A DNA stretch of 64,000 nt from Propionispira arboris (GTDB taxonomy: Bacteria > Bacillota > Negativicutes > Selenomonadales > Selenomonadaceae): NCBI RefSeq assembly GCF_900109225.1, contig NZ_FNZK01000012.1, positions 1 through 64,000 on the forward strand, read 5' to 3'. The first letter of the stretch is position 1; every line of letters starts with the position of its first letter. The notes under the pieces are model-generated. The model worked only from the letters and a program-made list of their open reading frames with translations, did no database searches and was not told the DNA's origin. A program made the position numbers and the translations under genes. Positions 16,067 through 56,470 of this stretch are shown here, in pieces.

Positions 16067-16133
16067 ACAAAAGCACTCTTTTTCTTCTGAGTAATTAAGT
16101 ATCACTAGAGAAAAAAGAGTGCTTTTGTTTTAT
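16067..16133 (+). terminator. Terminator of folPBK
   Basis: ACAAAAGCACTCTTTTTCT (16067-16085) pairs with AGAAAAAAGAGTGCTTTTGT (16109-16128) over a 23-nt loop with a single bulge, followed by T-rich sequence. It could also work on the opposite strand. Confidence 0.88.
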
Positions 16134-24117: not shown

Positions 24118-24262
24118 TAGGAAAAAATTTGCGAATTTTAAAGGTATTTTAGCTAAAAATAGGGAAAGGTAGAAACTTATATAGATAAATTTGTTTTTTG
24201 GACTATTATCGCTATGCACTTATATGTTATGTAAATCAATATGTTGGAGATGGAGGAAAAAC

Positions 24263-31981: not shown

Positions 31982-33772
31982 ATGAATGCAGCAACGAATT
32001 TGAGTAGTTCTGTCTCGGCTGCAAATGATACGCCTGTGACAGTAACTAGTCCAAAAGCAAAAAACAATGTATCAAGTACAAATGACAAAAAAAATGGCAA
32101 AAATTTTAGTGATATACTAGGTAAGGCACAGCAACAAAAATCAGATTCTGATCAAACTCAAGATACGGATAAAACGGATGTAAAGACGCTACCCAATGAC
32201 ACAAAAGATCAGCCCAAAGGACAGAGTGCTGACAATCTGCTTGCGCAACAAGCTGTTTTAATGGTTAATGTAGCATCATTGCCGAATGTGCAGATTCTTG
32301 CCGAGTCAAATCCAGCAGATTTAGCACAACCGAATGAACAGGGCCGTAGTAAGGTAAAGGCTATGTCTACGGTGGATTTTTCTAAATTTCTACAGACAAG
32401 TACGACGGCAGCATCTGGGATAAATTTATCATCCATTGAGCAGCTTTTGCCAAAGAATGGTGAAGTACAGATTCCCAATCAAGACCTGATGAATATGCTG
32501 AATGGGAAAAATGTACGCAGCACATTGACAGCAGATATAGCACAGCAAAGTCAAGCCGGAGCTACTTCAGATGGTACTAAAACGGCAGTAGGCGTTGTAG
32601 TACAAAATGATCAACAATCTCTGTTCAATATGCTAAATGGCAAACTAAGTGCGACTTCGGCACTGGATCAAAAACAAGCATTGTCTGCCCTTTCTGCTAC
32701 GAATCTTGCGTCTAATCCAGTTGTGTCAACAAAGATGGAAACAATAGATCAGCAGCAAGTCTTGCCAGGTGTTTCTGCTACAGCGAATCTTGCAGCTAAT
32801 CCAGTCGTGTCGACAAAGATGGAAACAATAGCTCAACAGCAAATTTTGCCAACCACTGCCCAAGATACACAAAAAACAGCCGGACAGGCTATGCTGAATG
32901 CGGTGACTGGAAAAACAGAGGATAGTACGATTCCTATAATCAATACAGCGCTCATGGAAAAAATCAGCAAGTTAACCAGTAATGCTGCCAGTGGAAAACC
33001 GGACAAAAAGACAGATGTGCCGTCAACAGCAAGTAATGCTGATAAAACAACTATATTGACGAAGTCAAGCCTGGATTCAGCGAATCCGATGCAGGTAGTT
33101 GCAACGGATGCTGGACAATCTAAGCCGAATATACCAATGGAAGTAAGTACGCTGGAGAAACCAGTTGAAAAAATTTCTTTAATGGTAAATGAAGCACCGC
33201 ATGATAAGCAGCAAGTCCCAGCTAATCCAGAGACAAAAACATCGCCAGCATTTGAACAATTGTTTTTAAACTCATTAAATACCACAGCAGCGGCTGGACC
33301 TGCAGTAAATGCAGCAACAACGGAGACCCAACAACTGGTAAAATACGATATTCCTGGACAAATCGTGGATCAAGCTCGTTTAATTAAGACAACAGAAGAT
33401 ACACAGATGGTTATAAAACTAAGTCCGGAACATCTTGGTGATTTAACACTTAAAGTATCCGTGGCAAATGGTGGTGCAGTGACAGCCAGCTTCCATAGCG
33501 ATAATGCCCAAGTCAGAACCATACTGGAGAATTCCATGATACAGCTAAAACAGGAGCTTGAGGCCAAAGGCATGAAAGTGGACAATGTTGAGGTTTATGC
33601 AGGGCTTGGTGATTTTATGTCGAATGGACAAAATAATCAGACCAATAGCCAGCAGCAAAATACACATTTTAAAAATCAAAAAATTAATTTAGCTGATTTT
33701 GAAGAAGAAGCAGGTAAAATCAATCTGACCAATGGAAATATTACAGAAGACAGTGTAGATTATCGAATTTAA
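31982..33772 (+). CDS. fliK: Flagellar hook-length control protein FliK
   Basis: A 596-aa secreted molecular ruler. The long N-terminal part is low-complexity, rich in Gln, Thr, Ala and Asn. The conserved switch domain is near the C-terminus (about residues 470-545: TQMVIKLSPEHLGDL, VRTILENSMIQLKQELEAKGM, VEVYAG). FliK measures the hook and makes FlhB switch export to filament proteins. AAAGGAGGTG precedes the ATG. A 27/28-residue tandem duplication lies at residues 238-292. Ruler length sets hook length, so the duplication may matter. Confidence 0.93.
   Translation: MNAATNLSSSVSAANDTPVTVTSPKAKNNVSSTNDKKNGKNFSDILGKAQQQKSDSDQTQDTDKTDVKTLPNDTKDQPKGQSADNLLAQQAVLMVNVASLPNVQILAESNPADLAQPNEQGRSKVKAMSTVDFSKFLQTSTTAASGINLSSIEQLLPKNGEVQIPNQDLMNMLNGKNVRSTLTADIAQQSQAGATSDGTKTAVGVVVQNDQQSLFNMLNGKLSATSALDQKQALSALSATNLASNPVVSTKMETIDQQQVLPGVSATANLAANPVVSTKMETIAQQQILPTTAQDTQKTAGQAMLNAVTGKTEDSTIPIINTALMEKISKLTSNAASGKPDKKTDVPSTASNADKTTILTKSSLDSANPMQVVATDAGQSKPNIPMEVSTLEKPVEKISLMVNEAPHDKQQVPANPETKTSPAFEQLFLNSLNTTAAAGPAVNAATTETQQLVKYDIPGQIVDQARLIKTTEDTQMVIKLSPEHLGDLTLKVSVANGGAVTASFHSDNAQVRTILENSMIQLKQELEAKGMKVDNVEVYAGLGDFMSNGQNNQTNSQQQNTHFKNQKINLADFEEEAGKINLTNGNITEDSVDYRI
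32693..32857 (+). repeat. In-frame tandem duplication inside fliK
   Basis: Two adjacent units, 32693-32773 and 32774-32857, encode near-identical peptides sharing ANPVVSTKMETI and QQQ-LP. The units differ by several synonymous and a few conservative changes and by one inserted Ala codon, so the duplication is not brand new. Confidence 0.85.
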
Positions 33773-34792: not shown

Positions 34793-36583
34793 ATGATGCG
34801 TTCTTTATATTCCGGTGTATCTGGACTAAAGGCTTATACGACGGGAATGGATGTAACTGGTAATAATATATCCAATATCAACACAACAGGTTTTAAGGCA
34901 GGCCGGGTAACTTATCAAGATACATTCAATCAGATGCTGGCTTCTGCATCGGGAAGCAGTGGAGCACTGGGCGGTACAAATCCTAAACAGGTCGGTTTGG
35001 GAGTCGGTGTTGCCAGTATTGATACAATCTTTACCGATGGGAATGTGCAGGCGACTAGTGCCAATACAGATTTGTGCATATCTAAAGCCGGATTCTTTAT
35101 TGTATCTGATGGGTCAAATCAATCGTATACCCGTAATGGTGCTTTTCAGTTTGATACGAATGGCAATTATGGTGTAACGGGAACTGGTTTGAAAGTGCAA
35201 GGCTGGATGGCTGATTCAACGGGGAAAATTGATCCAACGGGTGCTACACAAGATCTTGTTGTTAAAATGGGACAATCGATGCCTGCAACGGCCACAACCT
35301 ATGTAAACTATGGCAAAAATTTATCAGCAGCATCGGCAAATCCTACGATTACGTTATCTGATGGAAAAAAAGTGACTTATAATTCATTGACAACGACGTA
35401 TGCAAAAGGTGACACTTATACGGGTGCTACCATCAAGTCACTTGATAGTGCTTCATACACCTTGTCCAATGGAACGACGGTAACAGATGCATCAGGTGGA
35501 TTGTCTGCTAATGCTTTCCCAACAACTGCAGTTCCACTTACAATTGCAAGTGGATCCGCAGGGAATTACACATTATCAGATGGTTCAACCGTTACAGGCG
35601 CGACATCTGGGCTGGCTGTTGGTTCTACGTACCCGGATACTACTGGTGTTACATTTACTTCGGCAACCGCATTATCAAATGGTGCTACGGTTACCCCGGT
35701 AACGGGGATAACGTATACTAATGGCGATTCCTTTACAGCCAAGATAAAAACAGTAAATTCTCGAACCTACACGTTAAGTGATGGCGCAAGTGTCACAGAT
35801 ACAACAACACCAGCTACGGTTCTAGCTGTTGGGGCTACGTATCCGTTGACAATTACGGGCGTGGCGCAAACGGATGTCTCTTCTACGATTAGTGCCTATG
35901 AGACAGTCAAGGGGGTGGAACATAAGATTCCTGTAACGATGACTAAGGTCGCAGATAATACCTGGACGGTGAAAAGCAGTGGAAAAACAGATACGGGCTA
36001 CGATGTATCTGGTTTGAATTATAAACTTGTTTTTGATACTGCCGGTAAATACAGTACAGGTTCGACTTGGGATGCAACGAGCAGTTCTTATAAAACAGGT
36101 ATCAGCGCGGCTTCGTTCACAACGACGCAGGCTGGGACTGTTAATATGACAATGGACTTCTCAGCTGTAACCCAAAACTCAGGATCGACTGAAGCGCAAG
36201 TTACCGACCAGGATGGTAATGCAGCGGGATCGCTTACGTCGGTATCGATTGATGTCAATGGTTATCTTATTGGGTCTTATGATAATTCTAAAACAAAAAA
36301 AGAAGGGCAGATTGCCCTTGCCGTATTTAATAATCCGGCTGGTCTTACCAAATCAGGCTCAAGTCTTTATGCAGAGTCACAAAATTCAGGCAAATCTCAA
36401 GTGACAACAGTTGGTCATGGTGGTGCAGGTACATTGACTCCATACGCTTTGGAAATGTCAAATGTTGACTTGTCCACCGAGTTTAGTAATATGATTGTGA
36501 CGCAGCGTGCCTTCCAATCCAATTCTAAAATGATCACGGTAGCCGATGAAATGATTGAAACGCTGGTAAATATGAAACGATAA
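34793..36583 (+). CDS. flgE: Flagellar hook protein FlgE with repetitive insert
   Basis: A 596-aa structural protein of the hook. The N-terminus (MRSLYSGVSGLKAYTTGMDVTGNNISNINTTGFKAG region) and C-terminus (ALEMSNVDLSTEFSNMIVTQRAFQSNSKMITVADEM region) are standard. The middle, about residues 195-350, has diverged copies of a module with the core YTLSxGxxVT (near residues 222, 259, 291 and 326), each followed by a Thr/Ser/Gly-rich stretch ending in Y/FP. This part is surface-exposed in the hook and makes the protein longer than many FlgE. The ATGATG start has AAGAGGAG upstream. Confidence 0.94.
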   Translation: MMRSLYSGVSGLKAYTTGMDVTGNNISNINTTGFKAGRVTYQDTFNQMLASASGSSGALGGTNPKQVGLGVGVASIDTIFTDGNVQATSANTDLCISKAGFFIVSDGSNQSYTRNGAFQFDTNGNYGVTGTGLKVQGWMADSTGKIDPTGATQDLVVKMGQSMPATATTYVNYGKNLSAASANPTITLSDGKKVTYNSLTTTYAKGDTYTGATIKSLDSASYTLSNGTTVTDASGGLSANAFPTTAVPLTIASGSAGNYTLSDGSTVTGATSGLAVGSTYPDTTGVTFTSATALSNGATVTPVTGITYTNGDSFTAKIKTVNSRTYTLSDGASVTDTTTPATVLAVGATYPLTITGVAQTDVSSTISAYETVKGVEHKIPVTMTKVADNTWTVKSSGKTDTGYDVSGLNYKLVFDTAGKYSTGSTWDATSSSYKTGISAASFTTTQAGTVNMTMDFSAVTQNSGSTEAQVTDQDGNAAGSLTSVSIDVNGYLIGSYDNSKTKKEGQIALAVFNNPAGLTKSGSSLYAESQNSGKSQVTTVGHGGAGTLTPYALEMSNVDLSTEFSNMIVTQRAFQSNSKMITVADEMIETLVNMKR

Positions 36584-37419: not shown

Positions 37420-37479
37420 TAGTTTCAGTAATACAATATAATAACAAATATGATAAAGGGTATGAAAGGAGGAAAACGA

Positions 37480-38142
37480 TTGTCAGGGGCTGATGTATTA
37501 TCGCAATCTGAAATAGACCAACTATTATCAGCATTGTCTACAGGTGTTGTTTCAGCACAAGAAATGAAAGATGAAGAATTACAAAAAAAAGTTAAGATGT
37601 ATGATTTTAAACGCCCTGATAAGTTTTCGAAGGATCAGATCCGCACATTATATATGCTGCATGAAAACTTTGCCCGCCTTTTGAATACTTATTTATCAAC
37701 GTATTTACGAGCAATGATCAATGTTGACGTGGCTTCGGTAGAACAACTGACATATGAAGAATTTGTCCGTTCTTTATCGAACCCGAGTGTTATTGGCGTT
37801 TTAACGGTTCCACCATTGAAGGGAAATGTCATAATGGAAATCAATCCAAGTATTGCATTTGCCATTATTGATCGCCTGTTCGGTGGCACTGGCGAAACGA
37901 TTATGAAGATTAGAGCGTTGACGGAAATTGAAGAAGCGGTGATACGTAAAATTCTAAATAAAGCGATTGAAAATTTCCGTGATGCCTGGGCGAATGTTAT
38001 CAAATTAAAACCTCAATTGGAAACTATCGAGACAAACCCTCAATTCACACAAATTGTTCCGCCAAGCGATATGGTTGTCATTGTTACTTTACAGGTTAAA
38101 ATTGGTAAAGTTGAAGGTCTTATAAATGTCTGTATTCCATAA
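37480..38142 (+). CDS. fliM: Motor switch protein FliM, N-terminal part (gene interrupted by TAA)
   Basis: The first 220 residues of FliM. They include the CheY-P-binding N-terminus (DVLSQSEIDQLLSALS), the middle CheC-like domain (YEEFVRSLSNPSVIGVLTVPPLKGNVIMEINPSIAFAIIDRLFGG) and the start of the SpoA region (INVCIP). A TAA at 38140-38142 then replaces the codon where relatives have an aromatic residue in CIP-Y-xVLEPI. The same frame continues at once with LVLEPIMSKL for 115 codons. The start is TTG 37480 behind AAAGGAGG. As read, the protein lacks the C-terminal domain that pairs with FliN/FliY, so the switch should not assemble. The stop lies in a perfect 26-bp palindrome. Confidence 0.93.
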   Translation: MSGADVLSQSEIDQLLSALSTGVVSAQEMKDEELQKKVKMYDFKRPDKFSKDQIRTLYMLHENFARLLNTYLSTYLRAMINVDVASVEQLTYEEFVRSLSNPSVIGVLTVPPLKGNVIMEINPSIAFAIIDRLFGGTGETIMKIRALTEIEEAVIRKILNKAIENFRDAWANVIKLKPQLETIETNPQFTQIVPPSDMVVIVTLQVKIGKVEGLINVCIP

Positions 38143-38163
38143 TTGGTTCTAGAACCAATTATG
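38138..38163. repeat. Perfect 26-bp palindrome around the fliM stop
   Basis: The half-site CATAATTGGTTCT (38138-38150) is followed directly by its exact complement (38151-38163) with no spacer. The premature TAA is at 38140-38142. If codon 221 was TAT or TAC, the original sequence would have had one mismatch in the palindrome, at 38142. Confidence 0.97.
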
Positions 38164-38487
38164 TCGAAACTTACTACGACATTTTGGGTGGCTTCTTCCG
38201 TTGCAAAACAAGATCATCCTGAACAAATTGAACTTTTGCAGGCAAAGATTCGCAAGACAGTGGTTCCCGTGAGTATTGAACTTGGTTCTATTAATATTAC
38301 GATTCAAGAATTTTTGACTTTGGGTTTTGGTGATGTTTTGCAATTGGATACAAAAGTAAGTGATGAGTTGAAGCTTTTTGTTGGTAAAAGACCAAAGTTT
38401 TTTTGTAGGCCTGGAACCTCAGGGAAAAAGGCGGCAGTACAGATTACCAGAGTGATGACGGAAGGAGATGAGGGCGACGATGAATGA
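38143..38487 (+). CDS. fliM: Motor switch protein FliM, C-terminal part (after the in-frame stop)
   Basis: This 115-codon frame starts with the codon immediately after the TAA and is in the same phase as the N-terminal part. It encodes the rest of the FliM C-terminus: LVLEPIMSKLTTTFWVASS, then the SpoA domain (RKTVVPVSIELGSINITIQEFLTLGFGDVLQLD) and CRPGTSGKKAAVQI. The first codon is TTG, and an ATG comes at 38161. There is no Shine-Dalgarno sequence, though a terminating ribosome could restart here. Its end overlaps fliY by eight bases. Codon composition is not decayed, so the lesion is recent or not real. Confidence 0.9.
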   Translation: MVLEPIMSKLTTTFWVASSVAKQDHPEQIELLQAKIRKTVVPVSIELGSINITIQEFLTLGFGDVLQLDTKVSDELKLFVGKRPKFFCRPGTSGKKAAVQITRVMTEGDEGDDE

Positions 38488-39661
38488 TGATTTTATTTCT
38501 CAAGAAGAGATAGATGCATTACTTAAAGGTGGAATTGATAACAACGATTCAGCGTCTGCAGATACGAGTTCCAATTCGGATGTAGCAGAACGGCTCTCTG
38601 ATATAGAGCGAGATGCCTTAGGGGAAATAGGAAACATATCAATGGGAAGTGCGGCAACAACTTTGTCCGTTTTATTAGGTCATCGTGTTTCCATTACGAC
38701 ACCGCAAGTTTCAATTGATACGTTAGCTTCGATTAAGGATCATTATCCAATGCCATATTTAATTGTCGAAGTTGGCTATACACATGGAATTGAAGGTAAT
38801 AATATTCTGGCAATTCAGGCTCAGGATGCTTTGATTATTGCCGATTTGATGATGGGGGGAGAGGGAACAGCACCTCCTGAGGAATTAAATGAACTGCACA
38901 TGAGTGCAGTTGGTGAAGCAATGAACCAAATGATGGGGGCTGTTTCGACGTCCTTATCAACGATGTTTAATAAAAAAATTGATATTTCACCACCGAAAGT
39001 TAATTTAATCGATCTTGCTAAAGAAGATAAAGTAACGGACCTTGTTGGTAGTGAAGAAAAAGTCGTCAGAGTTTCTTTCCGCATGGAAGTAGAGGGCTTA
39101 ATTGACAGTGAAATTATGCAGATTTTACCGATTGATATATCTAAGGATATGGTAAGTAATTTAATGTCCGGATCAATGGAAGAGTCTGCACCTGAGCCAG
39201 CAGTGACTGCACCACCAGTAATGCAGCAGCCTGTGCAGGCTCCACAGGAAGCTTACGCAGCACCACCTCAACAGCAGCCAGCAGCGCAGCAGCAAACTTA
39301 TGCAACTGTGCCTATGCAGCAGCAGGCACGAGTGGCTTCGAATATACCGGTTCAACCAGCACAATTTTCACCACTTTCCACAGAGCCGGTAACGGTTAAT
39401 GATGCTAATATTGGACTTATTTTAGATGTACCACTTCAAGTCACGGTTGAATTAGGTCGAACTAAAAAACGAATTCGTGATATTTTAGAGTTGGCAAATG
39501 GTTCTATTATTGAACTTGATAAATTAGCTGGTGAACCGGTTGATATTTTGGTCAATGGTAAGTTATTAGCCAAAGGTGAAGTGGTCGTTATTGACGAAAA
39601 CTTTGGTGTTCGCATTACTGATATCGTAAGCCCAATGGAAAGAGCACAAAATCTACAGTGA
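38480..39661 (+). CDS. fliY: Flagellar motor switch phosphatase FliY
   Basis: A 393-aa protein combining CheC-type CheY-P phosphatase modules with a FliN-like end. The N-terminus has SQEEIDALLKGG (the CheY-P-binding peptide shared with FliM). Both phosphatase motifs are present (DALGEIGNISMGSAATTLS; MSAVGEAMNQMMGAVS). A Gln/Pro/Ala-rich linker covers about 230-305, and the SpoA/FliN domain (LDVPLQVTVELGRTKKRIRDILELANGSIIELD) closes it. ATG 38480 is preferred over 38468, which abuts the ribosome site GAAGGAG. It removes phosphate from CheY and forms the C ring with FliM. Confidence 0.95.
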   Translation: MNDDFISQEEIDALLKGGIDNNDSASADTSSNSDVAERLSDIERDALGEIGNISMGSAATTLSVLLGHRVSITTPQVSIDTLASIKDHYPMPYLIVEVGYTHGIEGNNILAIQAQDALIIADLMMGGEGTAPPEELNELHMSAVGEAMNQMMGAVSTSLSTMFNKKIDISPPKVNLIDLAKEDKVTDLVGSEEKVVRVSFRMEVEGLIDSEIMQILPIDISKDMVSNLMSGSMEESAPEPAVTAPPVMQQPVQAPQEAYAAPPQQQPAAQQQTYATVPMQQQARVASNIPVQPAQFSPLSTEPVTVNDANIGLILDVPLQVTVELGRTKKRIRDILELANGSIIELDKLAGEPVDILVNGKLLAKGEVVVIDENFGVRITDIVSPMERAQNLQ

Positions 39662-49776: not shown

Positions 49777-50577
49777 ATGGACACAAATCAGTACATGGAA
49801 ATGTTTTTGGAAGAGTCTCGTGAACATTTACAATCACTGAATGACTGTCTGCTTGAGCTCGAGCATAACCCTGAGGATGCAGCGGTTTTAAATGAAATCT
49901 TTCGTAGTGCTCATACAATTAAAGGTATGTCGGCTACTATGGGGTTTACTGAAATTGCAGAGCTGACTCATGAGATGGAAAATGTTTTGGATTTGCTTCG
50001 TAAAGAGCAGTTGAAAGCCGATGAAGATATTGTAGATACTATTTTTAAATGTGTGGATACGCTGGAACAAATGATTGAAAATGTTGCTGGTGGAGAAAAT
50101 GGTAAAGTTGATGTGTCTACTTTGGTTAACAAATTAAATGCAATAGCCAATGGAGAAGCAGCTCCTAAAGCAGCAACTGTATCACCGGCTGATTCAGCTG
50201 CATTTGCAGCTTCGGTCTTAGCACAAACTACAAGCAATCAAAATACGATCAGTTTAAATACAACGGATCTTGCTGTGATTAACAGTGCACATATATCTGG
50301 TCTACAGGCAGTCCATATTACAGTTACTTTAGCAGAAAGCTGTCTTTTGAAATCTGCCAGAGCTTATATGGTCATGAATGCGCTGGATGAAGTGGGCGAA
50401 GTCGTTAAATCGGTTCCCCCAGCTGATGATCTTGAACAAGAAAAATTTGAGCATAGCTTTGATATTGTCTTTTTAACTGGCATGGAGACAAAAAAATTGA
50501 AGATATCTTATTATCTATTTCCGAAATTGAAACTGTTGCTACGGAAATTATCGAAGTTAATTCATCCACAGCGATAG
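49777..50577 (+). CDS. cheA: Chemotaxis histidine kinase CheA, N-terminal part (frameshifted)
   Basis: The first 240 codons are genuine CheA. The HPt (P1) domain has the phosphorylated H46 (FRSAHTIKGMSATMGF), then a linker and the P2 CheY-binding domain (VHITVTLAESCLLKSARAYMVMNALDEVGEVVKSVPP). After METKK the frame runs off at an A7 run (50490-50496) into 27 unrelated codons and a TGA. The correct continuation (IEDILLSISEIETVATEII) is in the -1 frame starting at base 50496. Alone, this piece would be a phosphotransfer and docking fragment with no kinase. GGGGGAAT precedes the ATG. Confidence 0.9.
   Translation: MDTNQYMEMFLEESREHLQSLNDCLLELEHNPEDAAVLNEIFRSAHTIKGMSATMGFTEIAELTHEMENVLDLLRKEQLKADEDIVDTIFKCVDTLEQMIENVAGGENGKVDVSTLVNKLNAIANGEAAPKAATVSPADSAAFAASVLAQTTSNQNTISLNTTDLAVINSAHISGLQAVHITVTLAESCLLKSARAYMVMNALDEVGEVVKSVPPADDLEQEKFEHSFDIVFLTGMETKKLKISYYLFPKLKLLLRKLSKLIHPQR
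50490..50496 (+). other. A7 homopolymer / slippery heptamer in cheA
   Basis: A run of seven A reads A-AAA-AAA in the zero frame (last base of ACA, then two Lys codons). A -1 slip here gives ATT-GAA-GAT and restores the CheA frame. Eight A would do the same. GGAG lies three bases upstream, closer than is usual for stimulating -1 shifts, and only a short AAGATATCTT palindrome follows. Confidence 0.85.
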
Positions 50578-51860
50578 ATTCCGCCGATAAAGCCGTTACT
50601 GCTGTTCCGGCACCCGAAAAGTCAGCTGTGAAAACAATCGAGAAATCAACTGAAAAAAAGGTGACAGCAAATTCTTCTAATAATGGAGCTCATGATAAAA
50701 AATTAAAAAGTGGACAATCCGTACGTGTAGATATTGATAAACTTGACTCTTTAATGAATTTAGTTGGAGAACTGGTAATCAATAAAACCAGACTGGAACA
50801 AATTGGTAACACACATCGTATAACGGAATTGGTAGAAACAATTGAACAAATGGATCGTGTTACGACAGATTTGCAGTCCGTTGTTATGAAAGTTCGGATG
50901 GTTCCAGTAGGTCAGGTCTTTAATCGTTTTCCTCGGATGGTTCGTGATTTGGCGAAGGAATTAAATAAAGAAATTAATTTGACAATTGAGGGAGAAGAAA
51001 CTGAGCTGGATCGGACTGTTATCGATGAAATTGGCGATCCGCTGGTTCATTTGATTCGTAATTCGCTCGATCATGGTGTTGAACATCCGGAAGATCGTCA
51101 AGCGAAAGGTAAACCAAAAGTTGGTGAAGTTGGGTTAGTTGCACGTCATGAAGGCAATAATGTTATTATAATGGTAACGGATGATGGTAAAGGGATTAAT
51201 CCAACAGTCATTAAAAATAAAGCTGCTGAAAAAGGGTTGATTACACAAGAAGATGCGGATGCTATGGATGATGCAGAAGCTGTACGGCTTGTATTTTTAG
51301 CAGGTTTTTCAACGGCGGATGTTGTTACGGATGTATCAGGTCGTGGTGTCGGTATGGATGTTGTTAGAAGCAAAATTGAAGCTTTGGGTGGTTTAATTGA
51401 TGTTGAAACAAAAATTGACGAAGGCAGTATTTTCAAAATAAAATTACCATTGACACTAGCAATCATCCAAGCACTGCTGGTCAAAGTACAAGAAGAAATT
51501 TATGCGATTCCACTTGGTTCGATTGATAGTACGATTAACATTACGCCAGATGATATTAAGACAGTACAAAATAAGGAAGTTATTTTGCTGCGTGGTCAAA
51601 TCATCCCGATTGTTCGGCTGGATAATGTATTAAATGTTCCACAGACACAAGAAAAATCCGGAGAAGATTTATTTGTTGTTGTTGTTCATATGGGTGAACG
51701 TAAATCAGGGATTATTGTCGACAATCTGATTGGGCAGCAAGAAATTGTTATTAAGACTTTAGGTAAGCTTTTATCAGGTCTCAAAGTGATTTCGGGTGCA
51801 ACTGTTTTAGGCAACGGACAAGTTGCATTGATTCTGGATGTTGGAACTTTAATGCAATAA
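50496..51860 (+). CDS. cheA: Chemotaxis histidine kinase CheA, kinase/regulatory part (shifted frame)
   Basis: From base 50496 this frame is open for 454 codons. It holds the end of P2, a linker, the dimerisation helices (RVDIDKLDSLMNLVGELVINKTRLEQI), and the HATPase domain with N box HLIRNSLDHGVEHPEDR, G1 VTDDGKGI and G2 GRGVGMDVV. The CheW-like P5 domain (LVKVQEEIYAIPLGSID ... GQIIPIVRLD) ends it. All motifs look intact. The nearest start on its own is a GTG at 50628 without a ribosome site, so a separate product is unlikely unless frameshifting or slippage joins it to the first part; the joined protein would be 694 aa. Confidence 0.9.
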   Translation: MEDILLSISEIETVATEIIEVNSSTAIDSADKAVTAVPAPEKSAVKTIEKSTEKKVTANSSNNGAHDKKLKSGQSVRVDIDKLDSLMNLVGELVINKTRLEQIGNTHRITELVETIEQMDRVTTDLQSVVMKVRMVPVGQVFNRFPRMVRDLAKELNKEINLTIEGEETELDRTVIDEIGDPLVHLIRNSLDHGVEHPEDRQAKGKPKVGEVGLVARHEGNNVIIMVTDDGKGINPTVIKNKAAEKGLITQEDADAMDDAEAVRLVFLAGFSTADVVTDVSGRGVGMDVVRSKIEALGGLIDVETKIDEGSIFKIKLPLTLAIIQALLVKVQEEIYAIPLGSIDSTINITPDDIKTVQNKEVILLRGQIIPIVRLDNVLNVPQTQEKSGEDLFVVVVHMGERKSGIIVDNLIGQQEIVIKTLGKLLSGLKVISGATVLGNGQVALILDVGTLMQ

Positions 51861-54763: not shown

Positions 54764-56470
54764 ATGGACGAGAAAAATATGAGTTTGCCGATGGCTTCCG
54801 TTGGTGGCAAAGAGAAGGGTTATTTATTTGAATTTTTTCCAATGGGTGTATTTTTCACAGTGTATCCATATTCGGATACACAGATTTTGTTTGAGCTTAC
54901 AGATATTCAAAAATTATTAAAAGCATATGGTGTTAAAGTTTATGAAATAGAATTGTTGACAAAGACGATTCGTGAGGCTTCGAGTTTGCCAGTTAAAATA
55001 GCCGATCATTTTGATGAGCAGATGCTCATCAAAATGATCCGTGAAACAACTGGCCAAGAGTTGAATCTTCCTGAAGCTATTGTTGCAGCAGAAAAAGAAG
55101 ATTTTGCAGACTCACAAGTCAAGCTTGATATCAGCAAGAATAAAATGGAAGCTTCTATGCGTATTGAAATGAAAGAAAATTCAAAGAAACCAGATAAAAA
55201 TATGCTACTGGAACTCATCCAAAAGGCTGGTATTGTTTTTGGTATAAAGATGGAGGCACTTAATCAGCTTGTGCAGGGAACTCTAACCGATGCAATTGTA
55301 GCGGTAGGAAATCCACCAGTTAATGGCATCGATGCTGTGATCAAAAAGAAAAATAATATGGCAGATCGCGGTAAACCGTCTGATCTGGAATACAGCCGGG
55401 TTGATTATAAAAATTTGCACTGGTTTATTGTTGTTAAAAAGGGAGATATTTTGGCTGAACGAATTCCTCATACACACGGTATTCCGGGAATGGATATTCT
55501 GGGAGGGGTGGTTCCGGCAAAATCCGGTAAACCAAAACCGTTGCCAAATGGGAAAAACACAAAAATTGTAGATGAAAATATCATTGTGGCTGATTTAGAT
55601 GGGCAGCTTGTGGAAACTGGTAATAAAATCATGGTAGATCCGACAATTGAAATTAAAGGCGACGTAGATTTATCAACAGGCAATATCGATTTTAATGGTA
55701 GTGTGCTTATTAAAGGTAGTGTACAAGCCGGTTTTTCAGTTCGTGCTGATGGCGATGTTGAAATTCGCGGCACGATTAGTGGTGGAAATGTAGAAGCTAA
55801 AAATATTACTGTATTTGGTGGAGTTCAAGGAATGAATCGCGGGGTTATAACGGCGCAGGAAGATATTCGGGCTACATTTGCCGAAAATGCGAAAATGATT
55901 GCTGGAAGAGATATTCATATTGGCGATGTAATATTACACTCAAACCTAAGTGCTGGTGGGAAAATTTTTGTAGAAGAGCATCGGGGCCTGATTAATGGCG
56001 GTTCTATTGCGGCTGGTGAAGAAATTAGGGCAAAATGTGTAGGGAATCCTATGAATACTGCCACCAAATTAGAAGTTGGTGTGAACCCTATGCTAAGGGA
56101 AAAATACCAAAAAGTTAAAATAGATATAAGCAATACAAAAAAACAGCTGGATAAAGTGCAAAAAGCTCTGGCTGTTATGCAGCAAGTCGACAAGAGTAAA
56201 TTGTCACAAGATAAAAAAGAAAAATTGGCACAATTGATTCAGTCACAGTTTCCTTTGGCAGGAAAATTGCAACGGTACGAAGATGAACTTGTTACGATGC
56301 AAAATGCTTTTGAAGTTATGAAAAGCGGAAAAATCAGGATTTTGGATAAAATTTATCCTGGGGCAAAACTGGTTATGGGATCTTTGGTTAAAAATATTCA
56401 AAACGAAGCTCAGCACTGCGTGTTTTACGTAGATGAAGAAGATGCGACGATTAAGACCGGTGCTTATTGA
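54764..56470 (+). CDS. FapA family (DUF342) polymer-forming protein
   Basis: A 568-aa protein. The N-terminal part includes a region resembling nucleic-acid or cell-division adaptor domains, followed by a beta-helical core of short glycine-rich repeats (IEIKGDVDLSTGNIDFNGSVLIKGSVQ ... VEIRGTISGGNVEAKNITVFGGVQG). A coiled coil (about 455-520) and a C-terminal cap follow. This is the FapA/DUF342 layout often found after sigD in Firmicute motility clusters. The function is uncertain, probably polar or cell-surface scaffolding. AAAGGAGG lies upstream. Codons 81-92 are encoded by a perfect 36-bp inverted repeat. Confidence 0.85.
   Translation: MDEKNMSLPMASVGGKEKGYLFEFFPMGVFFTVYPYSDTQILFELTDIQKLLKAYGVKVYEIELLTKTIREASSLPVKIADHFDEQMLIKMIRETTGQELNLPEAIVAAEKEDFADSQVKLDISKNKMEASMRIEMKENSKKPDKNMLLELIQKAGIVFGIKMEALNQLVQGTLTDAIVAVGNPPVNGIDAVIKKKNNMADRGKPSDLEYSRVDYKNLHWFIVVKKGDILAERIPHTHGIPGMDILGGVVPAKSGKPKPLPNGKNTKIVDENIIVADLDGQLVETGNKIMVDPTIEIKGDVDLSTGNIDFNGSVLIKGSVQAGFSVRADGDVEIRGTISGGNVEAKNITVFGGVQGMNRGVITAQEDIRATFAENAKMIAGRDIHIGDVILHSNLSAGGKIFVEEHRGLINGGSIAAGEEIRAKCVGNPMNTATKLEVGVNPMLREKYQKVKIDISNTKKQLDKVQKALAVMQQVDKSKLSQDKKEKLAQLIQSQFPLAGKLQRYEDELVTMQNAFEVMKSGKIRILDKIYPGAKLVMGSLVKNIQNEAQHCVFYVDEEDATIKTGAY
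55004..55039. repeat. Perfect inverted repeat (17-bp arms) inside fapA
   Basis: GATCATTTTGATGAGCA (55004-55020), spacer GA, and the exact complement (55023-55039). It encodes DHFDEQMLIKMI within the protein's N-terminal region. No T run follows, so a terminator role is unlikely. Confidence 0.97.

Follow-up and report, generated by a model that had tools for sequence, protein, structure and literature searches.

Background

Template switching at quasipalindromes is an established source of mutation in Escherichia coli: the nascent strand templates itself, and an imperfect repeat becomes more perfect (PMC7202029). The same correction is described for the E. coli thyA hotspot, the lacZ QP5 and QP6 reporters, T4 rIIB and yeast CYC1. 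The locus described here, the fliM gene of Propionispira arboris, likewise presents an imperfect repeat that became more perfect; it differs from those systems in that it was seen once, by comparison of natural genomes and not in a mutation assay, in that the loop is 0, and in that the outcome is a stop codon. Inverted-repeat template switching in the Saccharomyces cerevisiae lineage is a second parallel, with arms likewise homogenised in coding DNA and the events inferred from relatives; PMC8604942 deals with multinucleotide mutations and protein innovation, whereas in fliM a single base changed and the gene was probably lost. A third point of reference is Campylobacter jejuni NCTC 11168, of which reference-strain copies lost motility in laboratories (PMC6700657). 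That study compared many passaged copies, whereas one assembly is set against a sister species here, and the flagellar frameshift named there (in fliR) was carried by two hyper-motile isolates.

No paper on this fliM case was found in a search of the open-licence PMC literature. The kind of mutation is already known, and the case is a natural example with no new mechanism; knowledge of flagella and of template switching is left unchanged by it. Should the base be real, the locus offers a clean natural case of a palindrome-guided copying error that kills a gene, and one for which both the ancestral and the derived state are available.

A stop codon within a perfect palindrome splits fliM

In the window, by which we mean the whole 64,000-nucleotide stretch of P. 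arboris DNA that was analysed, the plus-strand segment 37480-38487 is fliM, split by an in-frame TAA at 38140-38142 with both sides in frame. The locus comprises the following features:

37480..38139, plus strand: fliM upstream part, 220 codons from TTG 37480 or 230 from ATG 37450, with the N-terminus and most of the middle domain
38140..38142, plus strand: in-frame TAA where P. raffinosivorans has TAT for Tyr; within the palindrome, the two species differ at base 38142 alone
38138..38163, no strand assigned: perfect palindrome of 26 bp with a loop of 0, each arm being 13 bp long; P. raffinosivorans has 12 of the 13 pairs
38143..38487, plus strand: fliM downstream part, a FliM_C/FliN-like domain whose frame is still open
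38468..39661, plus strand: fliY-like gene with CheC and FliMN_C domains, intact, overlapping the fliM end; 397 aa in both species

Profile searches assigned both parts to the same protein. Pfam FliM matched 37450-38139 (2.9e-67, profile positions 1-181 of 192), and Pfam FliMN_C matched the downstream part (2.3e-22). The NCBIfam model fliM_switch (320 positions) covered the upstream part with positions 1-215 (258 bits) and the downstream part with positions 218-319, thus running on across the TAA with two model positions unaligned. A single FliM match above the cut-off was present in the P. arboris genome, so a second fliM copy making up for the loss was rejected. Counted from TTG 37480, the stop is codon 221, the numbering used here; from ATG 37450 it is codon 231. 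TTG 37480 seems the likelier start of the two, because the relatives' alignment rows hold stops upstream of it (15 of 109 rows, at position 2, 9 or 10 in ATG-37450 numbering, all upstream of the TTG); the sequence AAAGGAGG was also noticed by eye directly upstream of this codon.

The palindrome at 38138-38163 (CATAATTGGTTCT/AGAACCAATTATG) is perfect and has no loop. An earlier note on this DNA had claimed that the in-frame TAA of fliM lies within such a palindrome, and both re-reading of the frames and a palindrome search bore this out. When up to 3 mismatches were allowed, its sequence had no further match anywhere in the window (0 were expected), and among the 12 perfect inverted repeats of the window with an arm of at least 11 bp and a half-span of at most 60, it is the only one with a loop of 0. 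Open reading frames (ORFs) sampled from P. arboris gave 101,618 in-frame 26-mers for comparison on the same axis and register, and none of these reached 12 of 13 pairs, while two reached 11; the fliM site itself lies outside this set because the stop terminates its ORF.

The longest perfect inverted repeats detected in the window are two with arms of 17 bp, at 55004-55039 (loop 2) and 16067-16128 (loop 28), and they are perhaps terminators. In the second of them, the two species differ on either side, and the differences compensate each other.

Codon 221 is a sense codon in the sister species and in more distant relatives

Among the 60 genomes searched, one belonged to the same genus, that of P. 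raffinosivorans DSM 20765, and its fliM is 99% identical. Identity to P. raffinosivorans is 97.8% over 63.7 kb of the window, and the 1200 bases around fliM differ at 11 sites. Ten substitutions fall within fliM, each in the third position of its codon. Nine of them leave the amino acid unchanged; the remaining one, T to A at 38142, turns TAT into TAA. The P. raffinosivorans gene is an uninterrupted 345-codon ORF, and protein identity is 100% on both sides of the P. arboris stop. Since both halves thus differ silently only, the stop appears to be recent, and it was perhaps acquired in culture. The earlier note had proposed looking for TAT or TAC between identical flanks in the closest strains; with such an ancestral codon, the ancestral palindrome would have had one mismatch, at 38142. 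P. raffinosivorans has TAT and precisely that mismatch, and the remainder of the palindrome and the flanks are identical in the two species. The new A pairs with the T at 38159, raising the count from 12 to 13 of 13 pairs.

For a broader view, 109 relatives' loci (105 distinct) were aligned, from 29 of the 49 other matching genomes and 80 of the 126 further relatives, with 20 weaker matches left out. Relatives had been expected to carry a sense codon at position 221, and all 105 distinct loci do so: 71 of them encode Tyr there, 30 encode Phe, two His and two Cys. None of the 109 aligned segments contains a stop downstream of the TTG start. With no exception among the 105 distinct loci, the polarity is clear, and the TAA is the derived state.

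The question then arises whether the split gene could still yield a working FliM, by read-through of the stop or with a C-terminal domain made separately. SpaO/SctQ relatives make their C-terminal domain from an internal start, and the fliM locus has features that would suit such an arrangement: the downstream ORF is open, a TTG stands right behind the TAA, the domain is FliN-like, and its differences from P. raffinosivorans are silent only. Against it, no good ribosome-binding site was visible by eye ahead of TTG 38143 or ATG 38161, no stop occurs at codon 221 in the 105 distinct relatives' loci, and, given a normal ORF in P. raffinosivorans at 99% identity, a two-part design would have had little time to leave a trace. 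Of the three stop codons, moreover, UAA is generally the one least prone to leak, which counts against read-through. We therefore consider a working FliM of this kind very improbable, and the deliberate two-part FliM that the earlier note had listed as an alternative was rejected on account of the missing ribosome-binding site and the relatives' sense codons.

Probable template switching at the imperfect palindrome

Judged from these comparisons, the fliM stop is probably a real mutation that broke the gene. Our preferred explanation, to which we assign a probability of about 0.6, is that it is a recent loss-of-function mutation caused by template switching at an imperfect palindrome in a single-copy gene. 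During replication, a nascent strand on which one arm had been copied would fold back through the central CTAG and prime on the six-pair inner stem; at the mismatch it would then take the opposite arm as its template before switching back. In P. raffinosivorans, the imperfect stem already folds as single-stranded DNA, with an inner stem of six pairs and a four-base loop. The hairpin energy of the single-stranded DNA is -8.9/-9.2 kcal/mol in P. arboris versus -5.6/-6.1 kcal/mol in P. raffinosivorans.

A FliM truncated in this way should not form a working switch, and flagella should probably fail as well, as follows from what is established about the protein. Missing from the product would be the last portion of the middle domain together with the whole FliN-like C-terminal domain; the C-ring should therefore fail, and flagella or rotation along with it.

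In an intramolecular version of the event, a nascent minus strand would serve, as is implied by the position of the changed base in the left arm. The plus strand has a positive GC skew over its full length and is thus probably the leading one; in that case, an intramolecular correction of the left arm would have taken place on the lagging strand. Strand bias has been reported by studies cited in PMC7202029, and in the E. coli screen of that paper, most stimulators acted on the leading-strand reporter. The strand assignment thus argues mildly against an intramolecular switch, or else points to an intermolecular one.

Is the coincidence beyond chance?

The simplest alternative to template switching is an ordinary T-to-A point mutation that fell on the mismatched base by chance and was kept, motility being dispensable in culture. 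To weigh it, we used an alignment of the two species over 278,131 bases (four contigs each; 97.1% identity) with 8148 substitutions, 7123 of them coding. Stems were scored with a loop of at most 20 and at least four pairs inside and two outside the changed base; for coding substitutions, the P. arboris context alone was used in scoring either allele. The numbers of coding substitutions at which each allele forms a perfect stem are as follows:

Arm at least 7: P. arboris allele 32, P. raffinosivorans allele 25, null 24.5
Arm at least 9: P. arboris allele 6, P. raffinosivorans allele 6, null 4.65
Arm at least 11: P. arboris allele 3, P. raffinosivorans allele 2, null 0.7
Arm at least 12: P. arboris allele 2, P. 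raffinosivorans allele 1, null 0.25
Arm at least 13: P. arboris allele 1 (fliM, one event), P. raffinosivorans allele 0, null 0.05

The fliM arm of 13 is the longest perfect stem of either allele among the 7123 coding substitutions, and such a stem (arm at least 13) would result from 14 of the 941,529 possible single coding changes. Within fliM, 146 single changes could create a stop; two of them, to TAA and to TAG, lie at the mismatched base, and TAA alone completes the palindrome. Both proportions speak against a mutation placed at random. Exchanges between A and T are also a rare substitution class (457 of 8148). At arms of 7 to 10, however, coding DNA has no clear excess of palindrome-perfecting changes over the null, which favours the point mutation. 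Template switching, as the earlier note had proposed it, therefore fared unevenly: the coincidence is quantitatively unusual in coding DNA, but it is a single event, with no clear excess at shorter arms beside it. Taken together, the counts favour a palindrome-guided origin, on the strength of one event that was picked for its looks in retrospect, by a scan meant to find such coincidences, and we regard a chance point mutation as unlikely.

With all sites included, the excess of stems is larger and is shared by both species. For arms of at least 9, the count is 21 for P. arboris and 22 for P. raffinosivorans alleles (null 7.3); for at least 13, it is 8 and 9 (null 0.7); and for at least 14, it is six and six (null 0.5), so that the fliM stem is not the longest in this set. 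Selection on RNA hairpins may explain this excess, because it lies mostly outside coding DNA and several cases are in compensating pairs. A genome-wide template-switch signature was rejected, since the all-site excess is no longer evident at arms of 7 to 10 once the count is limited to coding DNA.

A conserved protein motif partly underlies the near-palindrome

The palindromic stretch of fliM encodes P-Y-L-V-L-E-P-I-M, and part of the near-symmetry comes with this motif. Under the codon usage sampled from P. arboris, random synonymous codings of the motif have a mean of 7.4 of 13 pairs, versus 3.4 for in-frame 26-mers. The motif thus makes near-palindromes common, a point in favour of a chance point mutation, and the near-palindrome is in part a by-product of conserved P-Y-LVLEPI-M. 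Among the 27,648 synonymous codings of the motif, two reach 12 pairs and none reaches 13, since codon 221 has its third base opposite the second base of an Ile/Val codon. That second base is T in 105 of 105 distinct loci. Pairing at the third base of codon 221 therefore demands A, which after TA gives TAA and is nonsense in the 71 loci with Tyr; as long as the motif is retained with Tyr at residue 221, no relative can combine a perfect palindrome with a sense codon, a case that the earlier note had envisaged. A conserved protein motif can in this way force a mutational hazard, in that perfecting that pair from the other arm can give only a stop codon. Correction of the right arm instead would change the Ile codon from ATT to AAT.

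P. raffinosivorans stands at the maximum of 12 pairs, for which the probability under the sampled codon usage is 0.0005; this could reflect chance or earlier silent events. It is a speculative and, in our opinion, doubtful extension of the preferred explanation that the FliM motif is a protein-encoded quasipalindrome in AT-rich codons with a fuse, where repeated silent template switches would have ratcheted the site to the edge until a final one broke the gene, and fliM loss would be recurrent and in principle reversible in lineages of this kind.

A distant FliM (49% identity) from Syntrophomonas sp. UBA1376 (L094) forms 11 of 13 pairs in the corresponding stretch, and the motif can therefore near a palindrome elsewhere.

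Assembly quality and other broken genes

Another important question is whether the stop is an error of sequencing or assembly, with fold-back during end-repair or amplification, or dephasing, having put a perfect palindrome into the consensus. The strain was reportedly described as motile in 1982, which counts for an error. In Table 1 of PMC10491768, P. arboris is given no row on motility. Enzymatic fragmentation of libraries is documented to yield false variants centred on palindromes (PMC6941819). Such artefacts lie near read ends (PMC6941819) and have a low allele frequency (PMC10908179), so that they should rarely win the consensus. The fliM site is not close to the end of its contig, which has 134,609 bases.

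The general quality of the consensus was assessed with 245 P. raffinosivorans ORFs that lie within aligned blocks and encode 100 aa or more; each was required to be covered to 90% by one P. arboris ORF. Four fell below this value. Three of them are clear breaks in P. arboris, namely fliM, cheA and an acyltransferase-like gene on C11, and the fourth, of 104 aa and located on C3, was taken as spurious. With three of 245 ORFs clearly broken, the consensus is generally good, and the idea that it is poor throughout was rejected. The two clear P. arboris breaks other than fliM are nevertheless homopolymer differences of 8 to 7, a classic error type, and this is a point in favour of an error at fliM as well. 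On balance, we consider an error in the consensus rather improbable.

The broken chemotaxis gene, which belongs to the same cluster as fliM, is arranged as follows:

49777..51860, plus strand: cheA, split into an Hpt and P2 part at 49777-50577 and a kinase and CheW part at 50628-51860

Compared with P. raffinosivorans, where cheA is a single 694-aa ORF, it has lost one base near 50497, where an A8 tract has become A7. Both species also have an open second gene of the CheA type, and kinase function may therefore not be lost altogether. The acyltransferase-like gene (assigned by eye; L142:3516-4595, G000:C11) has T7 at about 3552, whereas its P. raffinosivorans counterpart has T8 and is an unbroken ORF of 406 aa. 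With this frameshift outside motility, the view that the breaks are confined to motility genes was rejected.

In the reverse survey, three of 248 P. arboris ORFs were uncovered in P. raffinosivorans, one of them, fliK, being a clear break; the others were an ORF of 182 aa on C23 and one at window position 24191, which apparently reflects a different choice of start. The fliK gene (31982-33772) is open in P. arboris with an A8 tract at 32087-32094, while P. raffinosivorans (G001:C7) has A7. The frame of the latter is shifted near the N-terminus, and a 503-aa ORF restarts downstream. Five more ORFs have a single-base indel at most 50 bases from the predicted 5' end and were taken as start choices. 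Errors, slippage and phase variation are all conceivable sources of the homopolymer differences.

These breaks also bear on the chance point mutation: with fliM and cheA broken in P. arboris and fliK in P. raffinosivorans, loss of motility genes seems to be tolerated. The type-strain genomes of the genus thus carry broken motility genes, and one should not conclude from the presence of such genes that a strain is motile. General decay of motility genes in P. arboris was rejected, since six of six flagellin-type matches and 49 of 50 chemoreceptor matches in its genome have no internal stop (stops were counted, not frameshifts). Because these genes are without internal stops and the second CheA-type gene is open, the loss of fliM looks recent.

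Two further observations are minor. A short chemoreceptor-domain relic at G000:C36:146487-146690 contains one TAG and one TAA, and there is no counterpart row for P. raffinosivorans. At 34793-36583 of the window lies a flagellar hook-type gene (assigned by eye) in which small indels between the species, at 35489-35492 and 35902-35911, sum to whole codons.
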